A program made the translations under genes and the position numbers. Shown piece by piece: positions 3,641 to 37,870 of a DNA stretch of 64,000 nt. The notes beneath the pieces were generated by a model that searched no databases, was not told where the DNA came from, and saw nothing but the letters and a program-made list of their open reading frames with translations. Numbering within the stretch: the stretch's first letter is position 1; each line of letters starts with the position of its first letter. The DNA is from Marinobacterium jannaschii DSM 6295 (GTDB lineage: Bacteria > Pseudomonadota > Gammaproteobacteria > Pseudomonadales > Balneatricaceae): NCBI RefSeq assembly GCF_000620085.1, contig NZ_JHVJ01000025.1, positions 1-64,000 of the forward strand, in the 5' to 3' direction.

Positions 3641-4045
3641 GGGAGCCTCCATTGGCAACATTCAGGGTTATTATTGTTCTGCCCGCTGCAATTCTAGCCC
3701 TGATTAAAACAGGCTGACGGAGTCTAAATACTAACGACTCTTATTTGCCCCTGAGTAATTTTCCCATCTGTGTAATCCAGCCCTAATACGCTGATTTAAA
3801 AGACTTTACCCACGCAAAAGCAGACAGACTTTCTACATCAGTTTTAAAAAATATAAGTTATAGCAAAAGGTTCGTAACAGGCGTTACAGAACAGGGTTGC
3901 CCGGACCGTCTGCAGAGGGAGTCGGGGCATACTTGTGCCGTGCCGGAGGTCCGGGACACGCAACACAAAAAGGCGTGCCAGCGGGTCTGGCACTCCTTTT
4001 CAGGGGGAAAATGAATTATCTGGCGCTGAAACTCATGCCAGAAAC
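3641..4045. other. 405-base spacer upstream of the bacterioferritin operon
   Basis: Holds the promoter region of the minus-strand bacterioferritin pair (AT-rich near 3720-3870) and, at its far end, the terminator of the monooxygenase gene. I do not see a convincing Fur box or any coding sequence; the short open frames across 3858-4157 have no ribosome sites or family resemblance. Confidence 0.5.
3967..4000 (-). terminator. Rho-independent terminator after the ABM monooxygenase gene
   Basis: GTGCCAG (3975-3981) pairs with CTGGCAC (3987-3993), extended by AAAAAGG against CCTTTT with one mismatch. On the minus strand the stem is followed by TTTTTGTGTT, as expected for the oxidoreductase-monooxygenase transcript. 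Confidence 0.8.
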
Positions 4046-30323: not shown

Positions 30324-31958
30324 ATGGCCAAATCCCATCAGTATGACGTGCTTATCATCGGCAGCGGCGCTGCCGGCCTGACACTGGCACTTAATCTGGA
30401 TAGAAATACCCGGGTAGCTGTCCTGAGCAAGGGACAGATGAAAGACGGCTCCACCTGGCTGGCTCAGGGAGGTATTGCTGCCGTACTGGATGACAGTGAT
30501 ACCGAACAGGCGCATGTCGAAGATACGCTGAATGCCGGCGTGTATCTCAGCCATGAAGATGCAGTGCGTTTCACAGTCGAGCACGGTCGTGAAAGCATCG
30601 ACTGGCTGATCGATCAGGGCGTGCCATTCACCCGTGAAGCCGACGACAGCGACTACCACCTGACCAAGGAAGGCGGCCACTCTCACCGGCGCATTATCCA
30701 TGCAGCCGATGCAACCGGAAAGGCCGTACTGAGAACCCTGATTCAGCGTGCCGAAGAAGCCGGCAATATTGACCTGTTCGAGCACTATGTCGCCGTCGAT
30801 CTGATCACCCGCAGTAAACTGCGACTGGCAGATAACTGCTGCGTCGGTGCCTATGCGCTGAATATTAAAAGCGGTCACGTAGAAGCTTTTAAGGCCCCGC
30901 AGGTTGTACTGGCCACCGGGGGGGCTTCTAAAGTCTACCTCTATACCAGCAACCCCGACGGTGCCAGTGGCGACGGGATTGCAATGGCCTGGCGTGCGGG
31001 CTGCCGGGTCGCGAACCTGGAGTTCAACCAGTTTCACCCGACCTGCCTCTATCATCCCCAGGCGAAATCGTTTCTGGTCACAGAAGCGGTGCGCGGCGAA
31101 GGCGGCAAGCTATTGCTGCCCGACGGCAGTCGCTTTATGGATCGATTTGACCCGCGCGGTGAACTGGCTCCCCGCGACATCGTGGCACGGGCCATCGACC
31201 ACGAAATGAAACGGCTGGGGGCCGATTGCCTGTTCCTGGATATCTCCCATAAGCCGGAAGAGTTTATCAGGAACCACTTTCCGACCATCTATAAGCGCTG
31301 CATGAAGTACGGTATCGATATAACCCGCGAGCCTATCCCGGTGGTTCCGGCTGCCCACTACACCTGTGGCGGCGTAATCACCGATGACCTGGCGCGGACC
31401 GATGTCAAAGGCCTCTATGCCATCGGCGAAACTGCCTTTACCGGACTGCACGGCGCAAACCGGCTGGCCAGCAACTCGCTGCTGGAATGTGTTGTCTACG
31501 CCCGCTCGGCTGCCAGCCATATCCAGCAACAGCTGCAGAATAAAATCGAGTTGCCTGAGATCCCCTGCTGGGACGAATCACAGGTCACCGACTCTGACGA
31601 AGACGTGATCATCTCTCATAACTGGGGTGAGTTACGACAGTTTATGTGGGATTACGTCGGCATTGTCCGCACCAGCAAACGACTACAGCGGGCCAAGCAT
31701 CGCATTGAGCTGTTACAGCAGGAAATTTCCGAGTACTACAGCAACTACAAAATCAGCTGCGACCTGCTGGAGCTGCGAAATCTGGCGGTGGTTGCCGACC
31801 TGATCGTGCGATCAGCGATGCTCCGACAGGAAAGCCGTGGCCTGCACTACACGCTGGATTTCCCCGATGCAGGTCCTGAAGCGCTGGATACTATCCTGAC
31901 CCCGGTAAACTTCCAGTGGCAGAATCATCAGGCGGGGCCAGATAGTCGCCGAAGCTAG
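30324..31958 (+). CDS. nadB: L-aspartate oxidase
   Basis: 544 residues. FAD motif [16 protein letters not shown] near the N-terminus, flavin segment [14 protein letters not shown], catalytic-loop segments [14 protein letters not shown] and [13 protein letters not shown], and a helical C-terminal domain. It makes iminoaspartate for NAD synthesis with NadA. Divergent from rpoE, as in E. coli and Pseudomonas. Its last 68 bases overlap the end of the convergent ygfX-type gene. Confidence 0.96.
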
Positions 31959-32367
31959 CCAGCACCCGAAGGCGGCGGAAGCTGTTGGCGTCCGTCGCAT
32001 CCCTCATCACCACCAGCGACTGGATGAAATAGCGCTGTTTCATACGTAGACGCAGTACCACCACCCAGGGTAATGCCACTGCAGTTTCGATCTGCTCCAC
32101 CTGCAGCCAGCCGCTATCACGCAAAAACAGAAACATCTGTTTCCGGTTTGCATCCCAGCGTACCGCAAGCACAGCATCGGCATAGCTCAGCCGGCAACGA
32201 TTGAGCTGCCACAACAGCGAAAGCAGAGACAGGGTCAGTAGTAGGCAGAAGTATTCGACGCTCAGGTCGCTCAGAAACAGAGCGATAAGCGCCAACAGGT
32301 GACAGACCGCCACGATTCCCTTAAGGAGCCGGGACGGCCGGATTCCGGTTTCAAGCGGGCTGAACAC
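31891..32367 (-). CDS. ygfX: YgfX-type membrane protein (partner of SdhE)
   Basis: 158 residues with two adjacent N-terminal membrane helices (about 17-52) and a cytosolic domain with [25 protein letters not shown]. This pattern and its position directly downstream of sdhE, overlapping it by 17 bases, identify YgfX, earlier called CptA. Roles proposed in E. coli and Serratia include interaction with the cell-division cytoskeleton and with SdhE. The C-terminus overlaps the 3' end of nadB. Confidence 0.8.
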
Positions 32368-32605
32368 GGTCCAGAATAATCCGCACCATCCGCTTCAGAT
32401 CCGGATCTGCAGGCTCTTCACGCTGCATAAACCAGACAAACAGATCCTGGTCTTCACATTCCAGCAACTTAACAAATCGGTCCTGATCCTCTTTCTCCAG
32501 ATCACGAAACGCCTCGTTAACAAAGGGCACAAACAACACGTCCAGCTCCAGCATGCCACGGCGGCTCTGCCAGGCAAGGCGGCGAATATCTTCTTCGGTA
32601 TACAT
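32351..32605 (-). CDS. sdhE: FAD assembly factor SdhE
   Basis: 84 residues; ATG 32605 has AGGTAG 7 bases upstream. [17 protein letters not shown] contains the conserved RGxxELD motif needed for flavinylation of succinate dehydrogenase SdhA and fumarate reductase. The rest is the all-helical fold ([26 protein letters not shown]). Lies between the CPXCG gene and ygfX in its usual neighbourhood. Confidence 0.93.
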
Positions 32606-32734
32606 CAACACACTACCTAAACTCGGTTAGATGATGGAAGAGGCTGTTCTAACAGCTTCAAATCAGGCTGAAAAGCCTTTTAACAGGATCTACGACTAAG
32701 GAACCTGCACAGTTTACCAGAATATTCAGCTCAT

Positions 32735-32993: not shown

Positions 32994-33036
32994 TGAGAAT
33001 TTTTCCTATATCAATATTTTCAGGAAAAACCATAAT
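32994..33036 (+). promoter_or_regulatory. Promoter of sRNA copy 1 with palindromic upstream element
   Basis: Palindrome-like TGAGAATTTTTCCTA (32994-33008) and -10 box CATAAT (33031-33036). The -35 region is poor, which fits an activator-dependent promoter. Palindrome and -10 box are at the same spacing in all three copies. Confidence 0.65.
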
Positions 33037-33042
33037 AAGTCT

Positions 33043-33204
33043 CGTGGATCTCCTGTTCATGGAATGAATACTCAGGACGGCCAAGACACGCGGAATGGAG
33101 AGAAGGAACTCGGGCAGGATGCCCAACAGGGATTAACCGCAGGGAAAATGGATGCCAATGAAGAGGGTGCTACCAGGACGGTACAGCGCCCTCTTTGCTT
33201 TTTA
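33043..33204 (+). ncRNA. CsrB/RsmY-type CsrA-titrating sRNA, copy 1
   Basis: About 160 nt from the predicted start CGTGGATC to a terminator. I count 11 GGA motifs. Several sit in hairpin loops: TTCA-TGGAA-TGAA (33056-33068), GGGC-AGGAT-GCCC (33112-33124), and ACC-AGGAC-GGT inside the terminator. Loop-exposed GGA is the recognition element of CsrA/RsmA. The terminator pairs AGAGGGTGCT (33162-33171) with AGCGCCCTCT (33185-33194), then TTGCTTTTT. I infer that it sequesters CsrA. The exact family (CsrB, RsmX, RsmY, RsmZ) is not decided. Confidence 0.8.
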
Positions 33205-33291
33205 CCCCCCTCTTTCAGCCCGCGCTGACTGATCATATTTTATACTACACCTCAATATCTCTGGCCCTTATTCCCGGCTGAAAGGGAAAAT

Positions 33292-33334
33292 TAAGAATTT
33301 TTCTTATATCTAATCTCAGATATCCGGCCATAAT
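33292..33334 (+). promoter_or_regulatory. Promoter of sRNA copy 2 with perfect palindrome
   Basis: TAAGAATTTTTCTTA (33292-33306) is a perfect palindrome (TAAGAA-TTT-TTCTTA). CATAAT lies at 33329-33334. The TAAG...CTTA ends recall the GacA/UvrY box (TGTAAG-N6-CTTACA) of Rsm promoters, but with 7 rather than 6 central bases. Confidence 0.65.
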
Positions 33335-33340
33335 AAGTCA

Positions 33341-33492
33341 CGTGGATCTCCTGTTCATGGAACGAATACCGAGGACGGCCTTGATAAGCGGAAAGGAGAG
33401 AGGGAACTCGGCAGGACGCCAAACAGGGATTAGCCGCACGGAATACGGATGCCAATAAAGGGGGTGCTGTCAGGATGACGGCACCCTTTTTT
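33341..33492 (+). ncRNA. CsrB/RsmY-type CsrA-titrating sRNA, copy 2
   Basis: About 150 nt with 11 GGA motifs by eye. The central hairpin is GGC-AGGAC-GCC (33410-33420): the stem is shorter than in copies 1 and 3 but the loop GGA is kept. The terminator GGGTGCTGTC-AGGAT-GACGGCACCC (33462-33486), with a G-U pair, again exposes GGA in its loop and is followed by T6. Terminator sequences differ between copies while the loop motif persists, which argues for selection on the loop. Confidence 0.8.
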
Positions 33493-33559
33493 CTTGCCTG
33501 TTTAATGGCATTTGATCTGGATCAACTGAGATCACCCAGCTGGGCCGCAGCCATAAAAT

Positions 33560-33602
33560 TAAGAATTTTTCCTATATACGAAAAATCCTCAGCATCCATA
33601 AT
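33560..33602 (+). promoter_or_regulatory. Promoter of sRNA copy 3 with palindromic upstream element
   Basis: TAAGAATTTTTCCTA (33560-33574), one mismatch from a perfect palindrome, and CATAAT at 33597-33602, at the same 37-base offset as in the other copies. Confidence 0.65.
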
Positions 33603-33608
33603 GACACA

Positions 33609-33767
33609 CGTGGATCTCCTGTTCATGGAACGAATAGACACAGGATGGCCTGGACACGCGGAACGGAGAAAAGGATATCGGGCAGGATGCCCAACAGGGA
33701 TTAGCCGCAGGGAAAATGGAAGCCATATCGAGAGGATGTCTTAACGGAAAAAGACGTCCTCTTTTTG
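33609..33767 (+). ncRNA. CsrB/RsmY-type CsrA-titrating sRNA, copy 3
   Basis: About 158 nt with 13 GGA motifs by eye. The loop-presented sites include GGGC-AGGAT-GCCC (33680-33692) and the terminator loop AACGGAAA between AGAGGATGTCTT (33731-33742) and AAGACGTCCTCT (33751-33762), followed by a T run. It shares the 5' block CGTGGATCTCCTGTTCATGG with the other copies. An open frame crossing this region is not supported by any ribosome site and breaks the RNA structure logic. Confidence 0.8.
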
Positions 33768-33867: not shown

Positions 33868-34359
33868 TTACAGCATCTCAAGCCTGGCCCGCAGGCCCAG
33901 TTCGCTACTGTATCCCATATTCCGGCTGACAATCCGGCTGTCGTCCCCTATCAGATAATAAGTGGGGTAAGCTTTGATATGCCAGCGCTTCGCCAGCCCC
34001 GCATCGCCCATCAAGACCGGAAATGACAGCTTTTGCCCATCAATAAAGGCCAGAACCTCTGCACGGCTGCTGTAGTCGAGAGCGACCAGTCTGATTTCCA
34101 GTTCGGGATTGTCTTTCTGAAGCGATTGCAGGTTACCGATGCTGAGTTTACAGACGCTGCACCAGGGCGCGAAGAAGTAGACCAGTACAGGCTGACCAGG
34201 CGGCACCAGCTCCGCAACCTGCTGATCGAGTGTGACCAGGCGCTCCGGCCCAACCCGATCACCACTCTCCAGCAGGTCACGTGAACGCCACTGATCGATC
34301 GCTATAAACAGCGCAATCACGACGATTAATTCCAGCCCCCAGCGTTGCCAGCGTCTCAT
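33868..34359 (-). CDS. Membrane-anchored thioredoxin-like protein (TlpA/DsbE type)
   Basis: 163 residues: an N-terminal membrane anchor (LELIVVIALFIAIDQW) and a thioredoxin fold facing the periplasm. The active site is APWCSVC (CxxC, about 65-71) and the cis-Pro loop is AYPTYYLIG. Such proteins reduce periplasmic disulfides, often in cytochrome c maturation or protection against metal or oxidative stress. GAGGAG precedes the start. The specific partner is unknown; no Dsb or Ccm genes are adjacent. Confidence 0.85.
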   Translation of the reverse strand: MRRWQRWGLELIVVIALFIAIDQWRSRDLLESGDRVGPERLVTLDQQVAELVPPGQPVLVYFFAPWCSVCKLSIGNLQSLQKDNPELEIRLVALDYSSRAEVLAFIDGQKLSFPVLMGDAGLAKRWHIKAYPTYYLIGDDSRIVSRNMGYSSELGLRARLEML

Positions 34360-34464: not shown

Positions 34465-35526
34465 TCAGCGACTTTCAGACTGCGGGATTTCGGTTTCAAC
34501 AGCGCAGGGATCCTGGCCCCAGATTCCCTGCGCCAACCCTTCCGCCGTTTCCCGGCACCCGGCCGCTATCCAGGCGGCCAGCACCGAGGCCACATCCGGC
34601 CAGCGCTGCGCTGTGGGTTCAGGCATCTCCAGCCACTGCTTCAGGCAGTCGGCACTGTACTCCGGCATCACGGTACCGCGGCCCAGAAACTCCAGGCAGC
34701 GGGCATTGGAGAACTGTTCCGTCTGATTTTTAAGCGGTGTGGAAAGGATTTTCTTACCGTACTGCATCGCCTCACTGCAGAGGCCAAACCCGCTATTTGT
34801 TATAACGCCGCTGCAACTGGCCAGGTCACGCTGAAAGCCTTCACGACTGAACGGACGGAAATGCAGATGACCTTCATCAATGGGGCTTTCTATCCCCGCA
34901 TAGATGTAAAAGCGATTGCTTTGAAACGGCTGAAGCCGCTCTCGCAGCAGCTCCAGTGTGTCAGTGGGCAGGTAAACCAGTACTTTATCGTTCTGGTATT
35001 CGGGCACAAACAACGGCGGCTGTATCAATGGCGGCAGAATCGCCTGATCAAAATGATGCCAGTGAACACCGATAGCCGTTTTGACCGGGGCAAATAACTG
35101 TATCAGCGCCGCCATCAGACGATGGCTGTGATTGCCCGGCAGACGATGCATCAGCGCATATTGATGGGCAATGCCGACACTGGGCACACCTCTGTGCTTT
35201 GCCGCCCAGGCGGTGACCGGCTCGAAATCGGTGATTACCAGATCATACCCACTCAGATTCAGCTTCATGGCATCGGCGATGCAGCGAGGCAGGTTGTTGC
35301 TGCGCAGAGTCTCCCACAGCTGCACTCGCCCGCCCTGCTGCACAAACGTCAGCCCCTGGCGGGTCTGATAGTGACCAAAGGGCTCCATATTGAACAGCTG
35401 ATCCGGATTGCGTCCACTGAACAGGTAGTCGACTTCTATGCCCTGCGCCGCCAGTGCCGGCGCCATCACCCGCGCACGGGTGATATGGCCGTTCCCTGTC
35501 GCCTGTACGCCGTACAAGATCCGCAT
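34465..35526 (-). CDS. MJ1255/VC2487-family glycosyltransferase
   Basis: 353 residues with MRILYGVQATGNGHITRARVMAPAL at the N-terminus and GVITNSGFGLCSEAMQYGKKILSTPL in the C-terminal nucleotide-sugar-binding half, a GT-B fold related to MurG-type enzymes. The family is named after Methanocaldococcus and Vibrio members; natural acceptors are poorly known. It overlaps the PAP2 phosphatase gene by one base, which hints at a lipid-linked sugar substrate. Confidence 0.85.
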   Translation of the reverse strand: MRILYGVQATGNGHITRARVMAPALAAQGIEVDYLFSGRNPDQLFNMEPFGHYQTRQGLTFVQQGGRVQLWETLRSNNLPRCIADAMKLNLSGYDLVITDFEPVTAWAAKHRGVPSVGIAHQYALMHRLPGNHSHRLMAALIQLFAPVKTAIGVHWHHFDQAILPPLIQPPLFVPEYQNDKVLVYLPTDTLELLRERLQPFQSNRFYIYAGIESPIDEGHLHFRPFSREGFQRDLASCSGVITNSGFGLCSEAMQYGKKILSTPLKNQTEQFSNARCLEFLGRGTVMPEYSADCLKQWLEMPEPTAQRWPDVASVLAAWIAAGCRETAEGLAQGIWGQDPCAVETEIPQSESR

Positions 35527-36068
35527 CAGATCACTCCGTAAAGATTCAGCGCGACGGTCGCACTGGCAAGCCCCAACACCGCCCCGGCAACGATATCAGT
35601 CGGGTAATGAACCCCCAGCATCACCCGGGCCGATCCGATCATTGCCGCCAGTCCGAAACTGAGATAGCTCAGAGACGGATAGAAGTGACTGATCAGGGTA
35701 GCAAACACGAAGGCGGCTGCGGCATGACCCGAGGGAAAGCTGAACTTGTCGGAAGGCACGATAAAAGCATCAAAGTGATCGAAACGATCACAGGGCCGGT
35801 CCCGCTTGATCAGGTTTTTCAAAACCAGATAGAGCGGCAGTTCGATAGCGAAGGCCGTCAGGCCGGTCAGGAAAAACCTCTGACCATCCTCGGCTTCGAA
35901 AAGTGCCAGGGAGATTCCCAGTAGAAGATAGAAGCCACCGTCTCCAAAGCGAGACATCAAGCGGCTCCAGGAAGAAAGCGATGTGCGTGTAGAGTACCCC
36001 AGGCACAGGTTAAAGGCGTAGGTATCCAAGCGTGTAATTTTCTGCTGCAGTACGTTCATCCCGGCCAC
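35526..36068 (-). CDS. PAP2-family lipid phosphatase
   Basis: 180 residues, multi-pass. The three-part phosphatase signature is present: KRDRPCDRF (KX6RP-like), PSGHAAAA, and SARVMLGVHYPTD. It could dephosphorylate undecaprenyl pyrophosphate, phosphatidic acid or a lipid A phosphate. Co-transcribed with the glycosyltransferase at its 3' end, so the two probably modify the same lipid-linked or envelope substrate. Confidence 0.88.
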   Translation of the reverse strand: MAGMNVLQQKITRLDTYAFNLCLGYSTRTSLSSWSRLMSRFGDGGFYLLLGISLALFEAEDGQRFFLTGLTAFAIELPLYLVLKNLIKRDRPCDRFDHFDAFIVPSDKFSFPSGHAAAAFVFATLISHFYPSLSYLSFGLAAMIGSARVMLGVHYPTDIVAGAVLGLASATVALNLYGVI

Positions 36069-36141
36069 CCTTTTCAGGCAGATTGACTACCTGTAATGGT
36101 GTTTTTTTTACGTGACAGGCGGGTGAACCGGCTCTTAAGCT

Positions 36142-37053
36142 TTAATTACAATCTGCGAACGCGCTCTGCAACCACTGGTCTGCAATATCCACCATACACT
36201 CTGGCCGCAGCCAGGGCGTCATATGACCCGCCCGGGGAATCGACATCAGTTTAAACGGATGCCGCAGCGAGGCCACTAAGCGCTGGCTGTAGCTGAACGG
36301 CAATACCTCGTCCCTGCCACCGTGCAATATTGCCGCCTGAAATCCAAGCGACGTTGTCACCACCTGACTGTGGTAGGTGAATACGCTCGACAATGTACTG
36401 AGCGGGTAATCAAATACGATCAGCGGATCGCGATTAATCTCATCCCCCGCCGGGTGGCCGCTCAGCAAGCGATCAAAATCAACCAGGGTTCTTAACGGTA
36501 CTTTCAGCCCCGGAAAGAACAACGAGCCCGACCAGGTCCAGCTCCACCCCATCTGATGGATCAGGTCGGGAGGAATATCGGGTAATAGAAGAGTACCGCA
36601 AAGCAGTACTTTCAGGCGCGCATCGTTCTCGGCAGCAGCCAGCGCCTGTGTCGCGCCAATCGAAAAGCCAAATATTCCGAAAGGCCCCTGATAACGAGGC
36701 TCCAGGCGATCGATGACCGCTGATACAGCCGCCTGAACAGATTCGATAGTGTAGTAACCGCGGGGACCGCCAGAGTAGCCATGTCCGGGTGGATCAATCG
36801 CCACCAGATTAAAGCCTCGCTGGCTCAGTCGCGCCAACAACTCCGCGTATAGCTCACTGTAAGTTCCAATCCCCGGCAGAAACAGCAGCGTCGGAGCATC
36901 ATCATCAAAGTGATAGAGTTCACAGTGGATGCTGTCCTCCATTACAGTCATACACTGGCGTTGCTGCAGATAAGTCTCGATACCGAGCTTCTTACGCAAG
37001 CGTTGCCGCTGCTCCGGTTCTGCGTTAATTCGTCCTGATAACGCCTGATTCAT
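36142..37053 (-). CDS. Alpha/beta hydrolase (lysophospholipase/esterase-like)
   Basis: 303 residues from ATG 37053, 4 bases after the mutM stop and with AAGG upstream; longer frames would overlap mutM. The nucleophile elbow is FGFSIGATQA (G-x-S-x-G), the oxyanion region is LFLPGIGTYSELYAEL, and PPGHGYSGGPRGYYT is typical of alpha/beta hydrolases. The catalytic His is probably in RAGHMTPWLR near the end. No signal peptide, so it is cytosolic. Substrate unknown. Confidence 0.82.
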   Translation of the reverse strand: MNQALSGRINAEPEQRQRLRKKLGIETYLQQRQCMTVMEDSIHCELYHFDDDAPTLLFLPGIGTYSELYAELLARLSQRGFNLVAIDPPGHGYSGGPRGYYTIESVQAAVSAVIDRLEPRYQGPFGIFGFSIGATQALAAAENDARLKVLLCGTLLLPDIPPDLIHQMGWSWTWSGSLFFPGLKVPLRTLVDFDRLLSGHPAGDEINRDPLIVFDYPLSTLSSVFTYHSQVVTTSLGFQAAILHGGRDEVLPFSYSQRLVASLRHPFKLMSIPRAGHMTPWLRPECMVDIADQWLQSAFADCN

Positions 37054-37057
37054 TGTG

Positions 37058-37870
37058 CTACCTTTGGCAGTGGCTACAGAAAACGGTTGAGCGTTGCCCC
37101 AGCCGGATTTCTTTAAGAGGCTCCAAGCATTGCACACATGGCGCGCGCCCGCGACCGTAAACCTGCAACTTTTGCGCAAAATAGCCGGGTTTACCATCTC
37201 CGCCGACAAAATCCTTCAGCGTGGTCCCGCCCTGCTCTATCGCAGCCGCAAGTACCCGCTTAATCTCTTCGACCAGGATGCTCAGGCGCTCCAGCGAGAT
37301 ATTGCCGGCACGTCGCTTAGGATGAATCCCTGCGGCGAACAGAGCTTCATTGGCATAGATATTTCCCACTCCCACAACCACCTTGCTATCCATTACCAGC
37401 TGCTTGATTGCCGTCCGGCGTCCTTCACAGCAGGCTTTCAGATAGGTGGCATTGAAGTCGTCAGTCAGGGGTTCCGGTCCCAGATGACTTAACAGCGCAT
37501 GCTGCTCACCAGCAGGTTGCCAGAGCACGGCGCCAAAGCGACGGGGATCTGTCAGACGCAATGCCCGCCCGTCATTCAGACAGATATCGAGGTGGTCGTG
37601 CTTGCCCGGCTCTTTGAGCTGATCGACGATACGCAGGCTGCCGGACATACCCAGATGAATCATCAGATCGCCGCCCGCCACGCTCAGCAGCAGATACTTG
37701 CCCCGACGACTGACCGCCGCAACCGCACAACCGGGAAGAATCTCCCCCAGCTCCAACGGAACCGGCCAGCGTAAGCGCGGCTGCCGCACCTTCAAGCGGG
37801 TGATTGTGCGATTTACAACATGAGGCTCAATACCCCGCCGGGTGGTTTCTACTTCAGGTAACTCAGGCAT
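37058..37870 (-). CDS. mutM: Formamidopyrimidine-DNA glycosylase
   Basis: 270 residues, starting [17 protein letters not shown], where Pro2 and Glu3 are the catalytic residues after Met removal. [25 protein letters not shown] is the helix-two-turn-helix region and the C-terminal zinc finger carries CVQC and CSHC. It excises 8-oxoguanine and ring-opened purines. It is transcribed ahead of the hydrolase gene. Confidence 0.97.

Follow-up and report, generated by a model that had tools for sequence, protein, structure and literature searches.

Tandem predicted CsrA-titrating small RNA genes in Marinobacterium jannaschii belong to a family-wide RNA with a GGA-bearing terminator

INTRODUCTION

What is encoded by three diverged copies of a promoter-RNA-terminator unit that lie head to tail in the genome of Marinobacterium jannaschii DSM 6295? 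The copies are found in a 64,000-nucleotide stretch of DNA, here called the window, on contig C18 of a 5.18-Mb assembly in 39 contigs (G000). The original prediction, made from the letters of this DNA, was that they encode small RNAs (sRNAs) that titrate CsrA/RsmA. The removal of CsrA from its mRNA targets is the established mechanism of the CsrB, RsmX, RsmY, and RsmZ RNAs.

RESULTS

Anatomy of the tandem locus

The features of the locus are listed below, with scores from R1, a covariance model described further on that all three units helped to build.

32994 to 33008, plus strand: unit 1 palindrome TGAGAATTTTTCCTA, imperfect (4 of 6 arm pairs), putative GacA/LetA-type activator site
33031 to 33036, plus strand: unit 1 -10 box, CATAAT, read from the sequence
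33043 to 33204, plus strand: unit 1, predicted CsrA-titrating sRNA; 11 GGA; R1 score, 133.8 bits
Within unit 1, plus strand: hairpin A, 33054 to 33070; helix P2, 33090 to 33093 with 33137 to 33140; hairpin B, 33112 to 33124; terminator-loop GGA, 33176
33292 to 33306, plus strand: unit 2 palindrome TAAGAATTTTTCTTA, perfect (6 of 6 arm pairs)
33329 to 33334, plus strand: unit 2 -10 box, CATAAT, read from the sequence
33341 to 33493, plus strand: unit 2, predicted CsrA-titrating sRNA; 11 GGA; R1 score, 136.3 bits
Within unit 2, plus strand: hairpin A, 33352 to 33368; helix P2, 33388 to 33391 with 33434 to 33437; hairpin B, 33410 to 33420; terminator-loop GGA, 33473
33560 to 33574, plus strand: unit 3 palindrome TAAGAATTTTTCCTA, one mismatch (5 of 6 arm pairs)
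33597 to 33602, plus strand: unit 3 -10 box, CATAAT, read from the sequence
33609 to 33766, plus strand: unit 3, predicted CsrA-titrating sRNA; 13 GGA; R1 score, 132.4 bits
Within unit 3, plus strand: hairpin A, 33620 to 33636; helix P2, 33658 to 33661 with 33705 to 33708; hairpin B, 33680 to 33692; terminator-loop GGA, 33746
Left neighbor: small CPXCG-type open reading frame, read by eye
33868 to 34359: right neighbor, thioredoxin-like gene (Pfam)
34465 to 37870, minus strand: convergent neighbors on the terminator side, conserved in relatives, as follows
34465 to 35526, minus strand: glycosyltransferase (Pfam)
35526 to 36068, minus strand: PAP2 phosphatase (Pfam)
36142 to 37209, minus strand: hydrolase, a neighbor in most relative regions
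37058 to 37870, minus strand: mutM by eye, a neighbor in most relative regions

The tandem triplet is thus present where it had been described, with an identical CATAAT box and a common predicted transcript start in all units; CGTGGATCTCC starts at 33043, 33341, and 33609, and the 5' leader CGTGGATCTCCTGTTCATGGAA is the same in the three. The units are 85% (1 and 2), 88% (1 and 3), and 80% (2 and 3) identical, and each is closed by a predicted intrinsic terminator whose stem differs between copies while the loop GGA is found in all. Two details had to be adjusted. A 15-base palindrome precedes every unit, but those of units 1 and 3 are imperfect, and the spacing of 37 bases to the -10 box holds for all three when it is measured from the start of the palindrome to the start of CATAAT.

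GGA motifs and their conservation

A computed count reproduced the 11, 11, and 13 GGA motifs that had been read by eye. The units are the only stretches on the plus strand of the window with at least 9 GGA per 160 nt (peaks of 12, 11, and 13; strand mean, 2.2), and the minus strand peaks at 10 per 160 nt. Among 1,000 dinucleotide-preserving shuffles per unit, the observed number was reached 14, 18, and 0 times for units 1, 2, and 3. The numbers had been called far above chance; units 1 and 2 do exceed what composition predicts, but moderately (1 to 2% of shuffles), and the weight of the GGA evidence rests on conservation rather than on the excess in single units. GGA makes up 27 of the 128 positions beyond the 27-nt leader but accounts for 15 of the 25 that are conserved there at 90% or more. 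In predicted structures, GGA has a hairpin-loop probability of 0.27 compared to a mean of 0.15 and ranks third among trinucleotides seen at least 20 times, which together with the terminator loops described below bears out the proposed placement of GGA in hairpin loops. Conservation of the leader reaches beyond the GGA sites, with values of 90% or more at 21 of its 27 positions (33043 to 33069, 33341 to 33367, and 33609 to 33635 in the window), and simple titration does not account for a leader that is nearly invariant.

Selection at the RNA level

The folding energies of units 1, 2, and 3 had z-scores of -1.54, -2.55, and -2.31 against shuffled sequences, and since these values are so modest, single-sequence folding alone is no proof of structure. 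Consensus folding of the aligned units recovered no helix except the terminator. Pairing probabilities averaged over 61 aligned units (alignment A2) rose to 0.83 in the terminator and to 0.22 to 0.32 in other helices, with hints of a GGA-loop hairpin (GUUC/GAAU), of a second, small hairpin (GC-AGGA-GC), and of a helix between distant strands, the long-range helix P2 (in the window, GCGG/CCGC). A2 holds 61 of a set of 75 units, the 14 omitted being closely related units or ones whose terminator is cut; 8 further matches were left out of the set of 75 for a low score, a partial match, or a -10 box missed by the pattern used.

P2 covaries. It forms at least four Watson-Crick pairs in 56 of the 61 units, with 21 distinct helices, and the mean of 4.30 pairs compares with 3.26 when partners were swapped between units (standard deviation, 0.09), a value that none of 2,000 shuffles reached. 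The 61 units of this test are also those in which the helix was first noticed, from the averaged map and by eye, and the 5' strand of P2 was free to lie anywhere in a stretch of some 17 alignment positions, whether the partners were real or swapped. Partner swapping ignores kinship, so that 0 of 2,000 is no strict probability, and a held-out set was used for this reason: 20 further units from the R1 family search, 2 of them on records apparently already seen, though outside A2. Here, 15 of the 20 had at least four pairs, and the mean was 4.10 compared to 3.50 (standard deviation, 0.13), again reached in 0 of 2,000 shuffles.

The terminator gave the same kind of signal. All 10 alifold pairs show compensatory changes (35 units), and the loop carries GGA in every one of the 61 units of A2, in all 20 held-out units, and in 78 of 79 units of a wider count, which excludes 22 duplicates and 4 cut units and includes one fragment of a Pontibacterium granulatum unit counted elsewhere. 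In similar DNA, GGA was found in the loop of only 3 of 83 terminator-like hairpins that do not belong to a unit. In a separate count of hairpins behind GGA-rich stretches, 25 of 28 had the motif, and one of the three that lack it (L040) terminates the diverged second copy in genome G030; this second unit was likely missed in the wider count, so that probably two of the 79, and not one, are real exceptions. These RNAfold-based counts replace those of a cruder stem finder that swallowed loop bases and found GGA in 4 of 115 nonunit and 17 of 26 unit terminators. The suggestion that the stems vary while the loop GGA is kept, as under selection, is therefore upheld, and the proposed test of stem covariation in related genomes came out positive for both P2 and the terminator. 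Taken together, the covariation of P2, that of the terminator stem, and the retention of the loop GGA make a clear case, read from aligned sequences, for selection at the RNA level.

Distribution and copy history

A DNA search found matches in 23 of 57 genomes, that of M. jannaschii included, and a pattern scan of named genomes returned 53 stretches in Marinobacterium, Neptuniibacter, Pontibacterium, Neptunomonas, Nitrincola, the Osedax symbiont Rs2, and bacteria labeled Oceanospirillaceae or Oceanospirillales. R1, built from 61 units and used at an E value of 0.001 or better, matched 88 of the 116 genomes of the bacterium's family and left 28 without a match; many of the stronger family matches helped to build the model, and 5 of the 88 genomes score only 26 to 29 bits. 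One copy is present in 57 of the matched genomes, two in 24, three in 6, and five in M. jannaschii. In 6 of the 116 genomes (G002, G082, G096, G101, G104, and M. jannaschii), three matches are packed into about 1.2 kb. With stricter filters that lose weak matches, R1 was found in 26 of 390 genomes sampled from the order, of which 10 belong to other families and score no more than 34.8 bits, and in 4 of 369 sampled from the class, M. jannaschii included, where the others had at most 24.2 bits. Matches outside the family are few and weak, and several (L148 to L152) were dismissed by eye as chance.

A homologue of the glycosyltransferase at 34465 to 35526 adjoins the unit or units in convergent orientation in 17 of 18 relative regions (L039 to L056), the exception being L055 in G014, and PAP2, hydrolase, and mutM-like genes mostly follow behind it. 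Homologues of the left neighbors (31891 to 32611) were found in none of these 18 regions. The shared neighbor in 17 of 18 regions indicates an old site with a changing number of copies. In a tree of 42 units, the paralogue pairs of P. sinense, P. granulatum, and GY13CH fall into separate clades (99/96 and 99/93) and one Neptuniibacter copy type forms a clade of its own (100/99), while units 1 and 2 of the window are joined weakly (87/53) and 17 of 39 inner branches are unresolved. Judged from this tree, duplication seems to have recurred. That the window triplet is one ancestral array is unsupported, as the copies of other lineages group separately, with the same 17 of 39 inner branches unresolved.

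CsrA and further candidates in the genome

The genome encodes CsrA, with a single PF02599 match (91.3 bits, 62 amino acids) that adjoins a gene read by eye as an aspartokinase. Candidates away from the window are as follows.

C3:1059 to 1207 and C3:670 to 812, minus strand (locus L038, C3:670 to 1260): two further R1 units, beside thiD (by eye)
Palindrome at C6:255900 to 255917 and downstream DNA (L121, about 3720 to 3918), minus strand: possible sixth sRNA; 6 GGA in 145 nt; GGGA terminator loop

L038 is the second site of M. jannaschii itself and is not one of the 18 relative regions. The pair lies near the start of its contig, which may hide more copies, and the downstream unit has no palindrome.

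The sixth candidate is of another sequence type and is not among the R1 matches, and its palindrome is similar to that of the units. It lies directly behind STAS and SpoIIE-phosphatase genes, which we take to resemble hsbA and hsbR, and is convergent with a transaldolase gene. In P. granulatum (L125), the genes follow one another in the same way, and a palindrome is again followed by a GGA-rich stretch. A weak R1 match in G103 (C30:86873 to 86946; 25.6 bits) also adjoins a transaldolase gene, and an hsbA homologue was not found in the 4.5 kb examined there. Orthology of the sixth candidate with rsmX by synteny is not supported, as hsbA- and tal-like genes were not found in four rsmX-bearing regions, one of them incomplete.

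The promoter palindrome and a candidate activator

The distance from the start of the palindrome to the -10 box is 37 bases in 63 of 75 family units and 38 in 10. Two are outliers: the M. jannaschii C3 unit that lacks the palindrome and L080, with 31 bases, where the pattern probably picked another -10 box. LetA of Legionella has its own consensus site. The box given for UvrY/GacA (PMC4682653 and PMC3171408) is TGTAAGN6CTTACA; this canonical box is not present in the 75 units, which mostly have TA(A/G)GA-N5-TC(C/T)TA instead.

No M. jannaschii protein reached the NF007018 cutoff for the UvrY family; the best relative of Escherichia coli UvrY, 39 to 43% identical and carrying an insertion, scored 186 of the 280 bits. 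The best relatives were 37 to 44% identical in 15 of the 16 genomes tested, and G012 gave only a partial one. Placement of a GacA beside uvrC did not help to identify it, as a homologue of E. coli UvrC was not found in the 6.5 kb around the best UvrY-like candidate. Insertion-bearing UvrY-like response regulators are seen at L120:2467 to 3135 (plus strand) and in its homologues. The insertion, 8 to 11 residues long, lies in the receiver domain after a DLSMP-like motif and was seen by eye in a UvrY-like protein in 12 of 12 R1-bearing genomes, where the protein is not always the top match (G023 and G031 have another). It was seen in none of the five proteins aligned from the R1-less genomes G005, G016, and G017, a comparison uncorrected for kinship and covering a subset of the regulators; R1-less G012 gave none that could be aligned. 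In G023, the gene for the insertion-bearing protein (C25:9698 to 10351, minus strand) is convergent with an R1 unit (C25:9235 to 9371, plus strand) about 330 bases away (L203). From these patterns we infer that this regulator could be the activator of the units.

Comparison with known Csr/Rsm RNAs

Covariance models of CsrB, RsmX, RsmY, and PrrB_RsmZ had been proposed as a check on the units. None matched at its gathering score in the window, and what the check gave was RsmY and RsmZ below threshold (RsmY at 21.2 and 20.6 bits, E values of 0.0085 and 0.012, against a gathering score of 57; RsmZ at 16.5 bits, E value of 0.28, against 44). In the genome as a whole, CsrB (RF00018) had no match over the cutoff, the best being 13.7 bits away from the tandem locus, and rsmX was absent among the matches listed. 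Membership in a named Rfam family is hence rejected at the curated cutoffs.

The units are like RsmX, RsmY, and RsmZ of Pseudomonas (RF02144, RF00195, and RF00166) in being short, rich in GGA, present in several copies, and equipped with their own promoter, terminator, and upstream palindrome. They differ in the upstream box, the P2 helix, and the nearly invariant leader, and the terminator-loop GGA is absent from the Rfam consensus of RsmY and RsmZ and from three of three complete rsmX sequences. With CsrB and CsrC of E. coli (RF00018 and RF00084), they share multiple GGA motifs and an intrinsic terminator, but these RNAs are 369 and 246 nt long with 22 and 14 GGA and none in the terminator loop. 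The UvrY-bound palindrome of csrB is centered 182 to 183 bases upstream according to PMC4682653, compared to a center some 42 bases before the predicted start in the units. Two sequences of another family of the same order, f37 (L142 and L144), possibly Csr sRNAs of that family, likewise have a GGA-rich stretch and a terminator and match R1 weakly (E values of 1.5e-8 and 9.1e-6), whereas by eye their palindromes are nearer to TGTA...CTTACA and their terminator loops lack GGA.

Neighboring Csr/Rsm genes are known. PMC7911923 tabulates tandem rsmX-1/rsmX-2 for at least three Pseudomonas strains and gives up to five rsmX copies for Pseudomonas syringae, and PMC3171408 describes a locus of Shewanella oneidensis that holds both csrB1 and csrB2, with a separate upstream box for each gene. 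The latter pair differs from our units in predicted length (420 and 421 bp), in a transposase gene in between, and in having the box TGTAAGN6CTTACA (PMC3171408). The arrangements in the passages of these papers drawn on here are pairs, while the window has three in a row.

DISCUSSION

The anatomy of the three units, their conservation across the family, selection on their RNA, and the presence of csrA in the same genome are direct observations of this study. The units appear noncoding and intergenic, with a predicted promoter and intrinsic terminator of their own, and show an excess and a conservation of GGA that is predicted to lie in loops and single strands, in a host that encodes CsrA; these are the marks of a CsrA/RsmA-titrating sRNA. 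We consider it highly probable, with comparative sequence data as the basis, that the units are CsrA-titrating sRNAs driven by a regulator of the GacA/LetA/UvrY type. The density and placement of GGA, the conservation centered on it, the covariation, the lack of a shared reading frame, the spacing of the palindrome, csrA, and the family-wide conservation all point toward the reading that the original prediction proposed. Transcription, the identity of the activator, CsrA binding, and the physiological output are what we infer beyond this.

The nearly invariant leader could fit a different function, in which the units would be base-pairing (antisense) or dual-function sRNAs whose leader GUGGAUCUCCUGUUCAUGGAAC pairs with mRNAs, the GGAs being secondary. 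The conserved 21 of 27 leader positions include the non-GGA stretch UCUCCUGUUC, which by eye could pair with a Shine-Dalgarno-like sequence. However, UCUCCUGUUC is predicted to be mostly paired within the RNA itself (unpaired probabilities of 0.10 to 0.26, apart from a C at 0.55 and a U at 0.43), and outside the leader, the conserved positions concentrate in GGA, so that we regard this function as improbable. An exposed anti-Shine-Dalgarno leader was rejected, as most of the stretch is predicted to be paired.

Two readings that involve no regulatory RNA fare worse. The units have several copies in the genome, and those in the window are 80 to 88% identical, as a dispersed REP- or MITE-like repeat without a regulatory role would be, but with one to three copies in 87 of the 88 matched genomes, the same neighbor in 17 of 18 regions, a fixed promoter spacing, covariation, and some paralogues that stay distinct across species, such a repeat is very improbable. 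That the similarity in DNA reflects genes for short proteins has a hardly noticeable chance of being right: a mechanical open reading frame of 89 amino acids covers most of unit 3 (33475 to 33744), but no frame is open in all units (the best is stop-free in 19 of 57), the aligned lengths modulo 3 split 29, 17, and 15, and conservation tracks helices and GGA. A conserved protein frame had been named in advance as evidence against sRNAs, and there is none across the units.

If the units are CsrA-titrating sRNAs, the locus would consist of three sRNA genes that are paralogues of one another, and none would share its activator site, its sigma-70-like -10 box, or its intrinsic terminator with the others. 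A response regulator of the GacA/LetA/UvrY type would bind the TAGGAA-N3-TTCCTA-like palindrome, whose start lies 37 bases before the -10 box, and turn transcription on, and the predicted transcript of 150 to 160 nt would present GGA in loops and single strands, the terminator loop included. By analogy with CsrB and RsmZ, each RNA would then bind several CsrA dimers and take CsrA off its target mRNAs, and the tandem copies with their three promoters would multiply the dose of the sponge. It is conceivable, though rather unlikely, that the terminator-loop GGA acts as a functional switch, more than one further site, at which bound CsrA alters termination or protects the 3' end. If this were so, free CsrA would set the amount of the sponge, its lifetime, or the read-through into the next unit, which would give longer, multiunit sponges.

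A study by Kulkarni and others from 2006 reportedly predicted CsrA-regulating sRNAs and may cover one of these genomes. In searches of the literature on the genera and the order, no report of a Csr RNA for the family was among the matches listed, where a paper on Alcanivorax surfaced (PMC9788540). The original prediction held the triplicate arrangement to be unrecognized in this lineage, and this can be kept in part: the literature already has tandem Csr/Rsm sRNAs, and triplets are shared by the 6 of 116 genomes above, while the terminator-loop site appears new. What appears to be new, then, is the sRNA family, its architecture, and this site, and not the tandem organization of Csr/Rsm sRNAs, which is already known.

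In conclusion, these marine bacteria appear to have a family-wide CsrA sponge RNA that every Rfam model misses at its cutoff, with an architecture defined by the P2 helix, the GGA-bearing terminator, and a noncanonical activator box. The natural series of one, two, three, and five copies would allow a test of how sponge dosage evolves, and with a CsrA-type motif conserved inside the terminator, it can be tested directly whether CsrA occupancy is linked to 3'-end formation.
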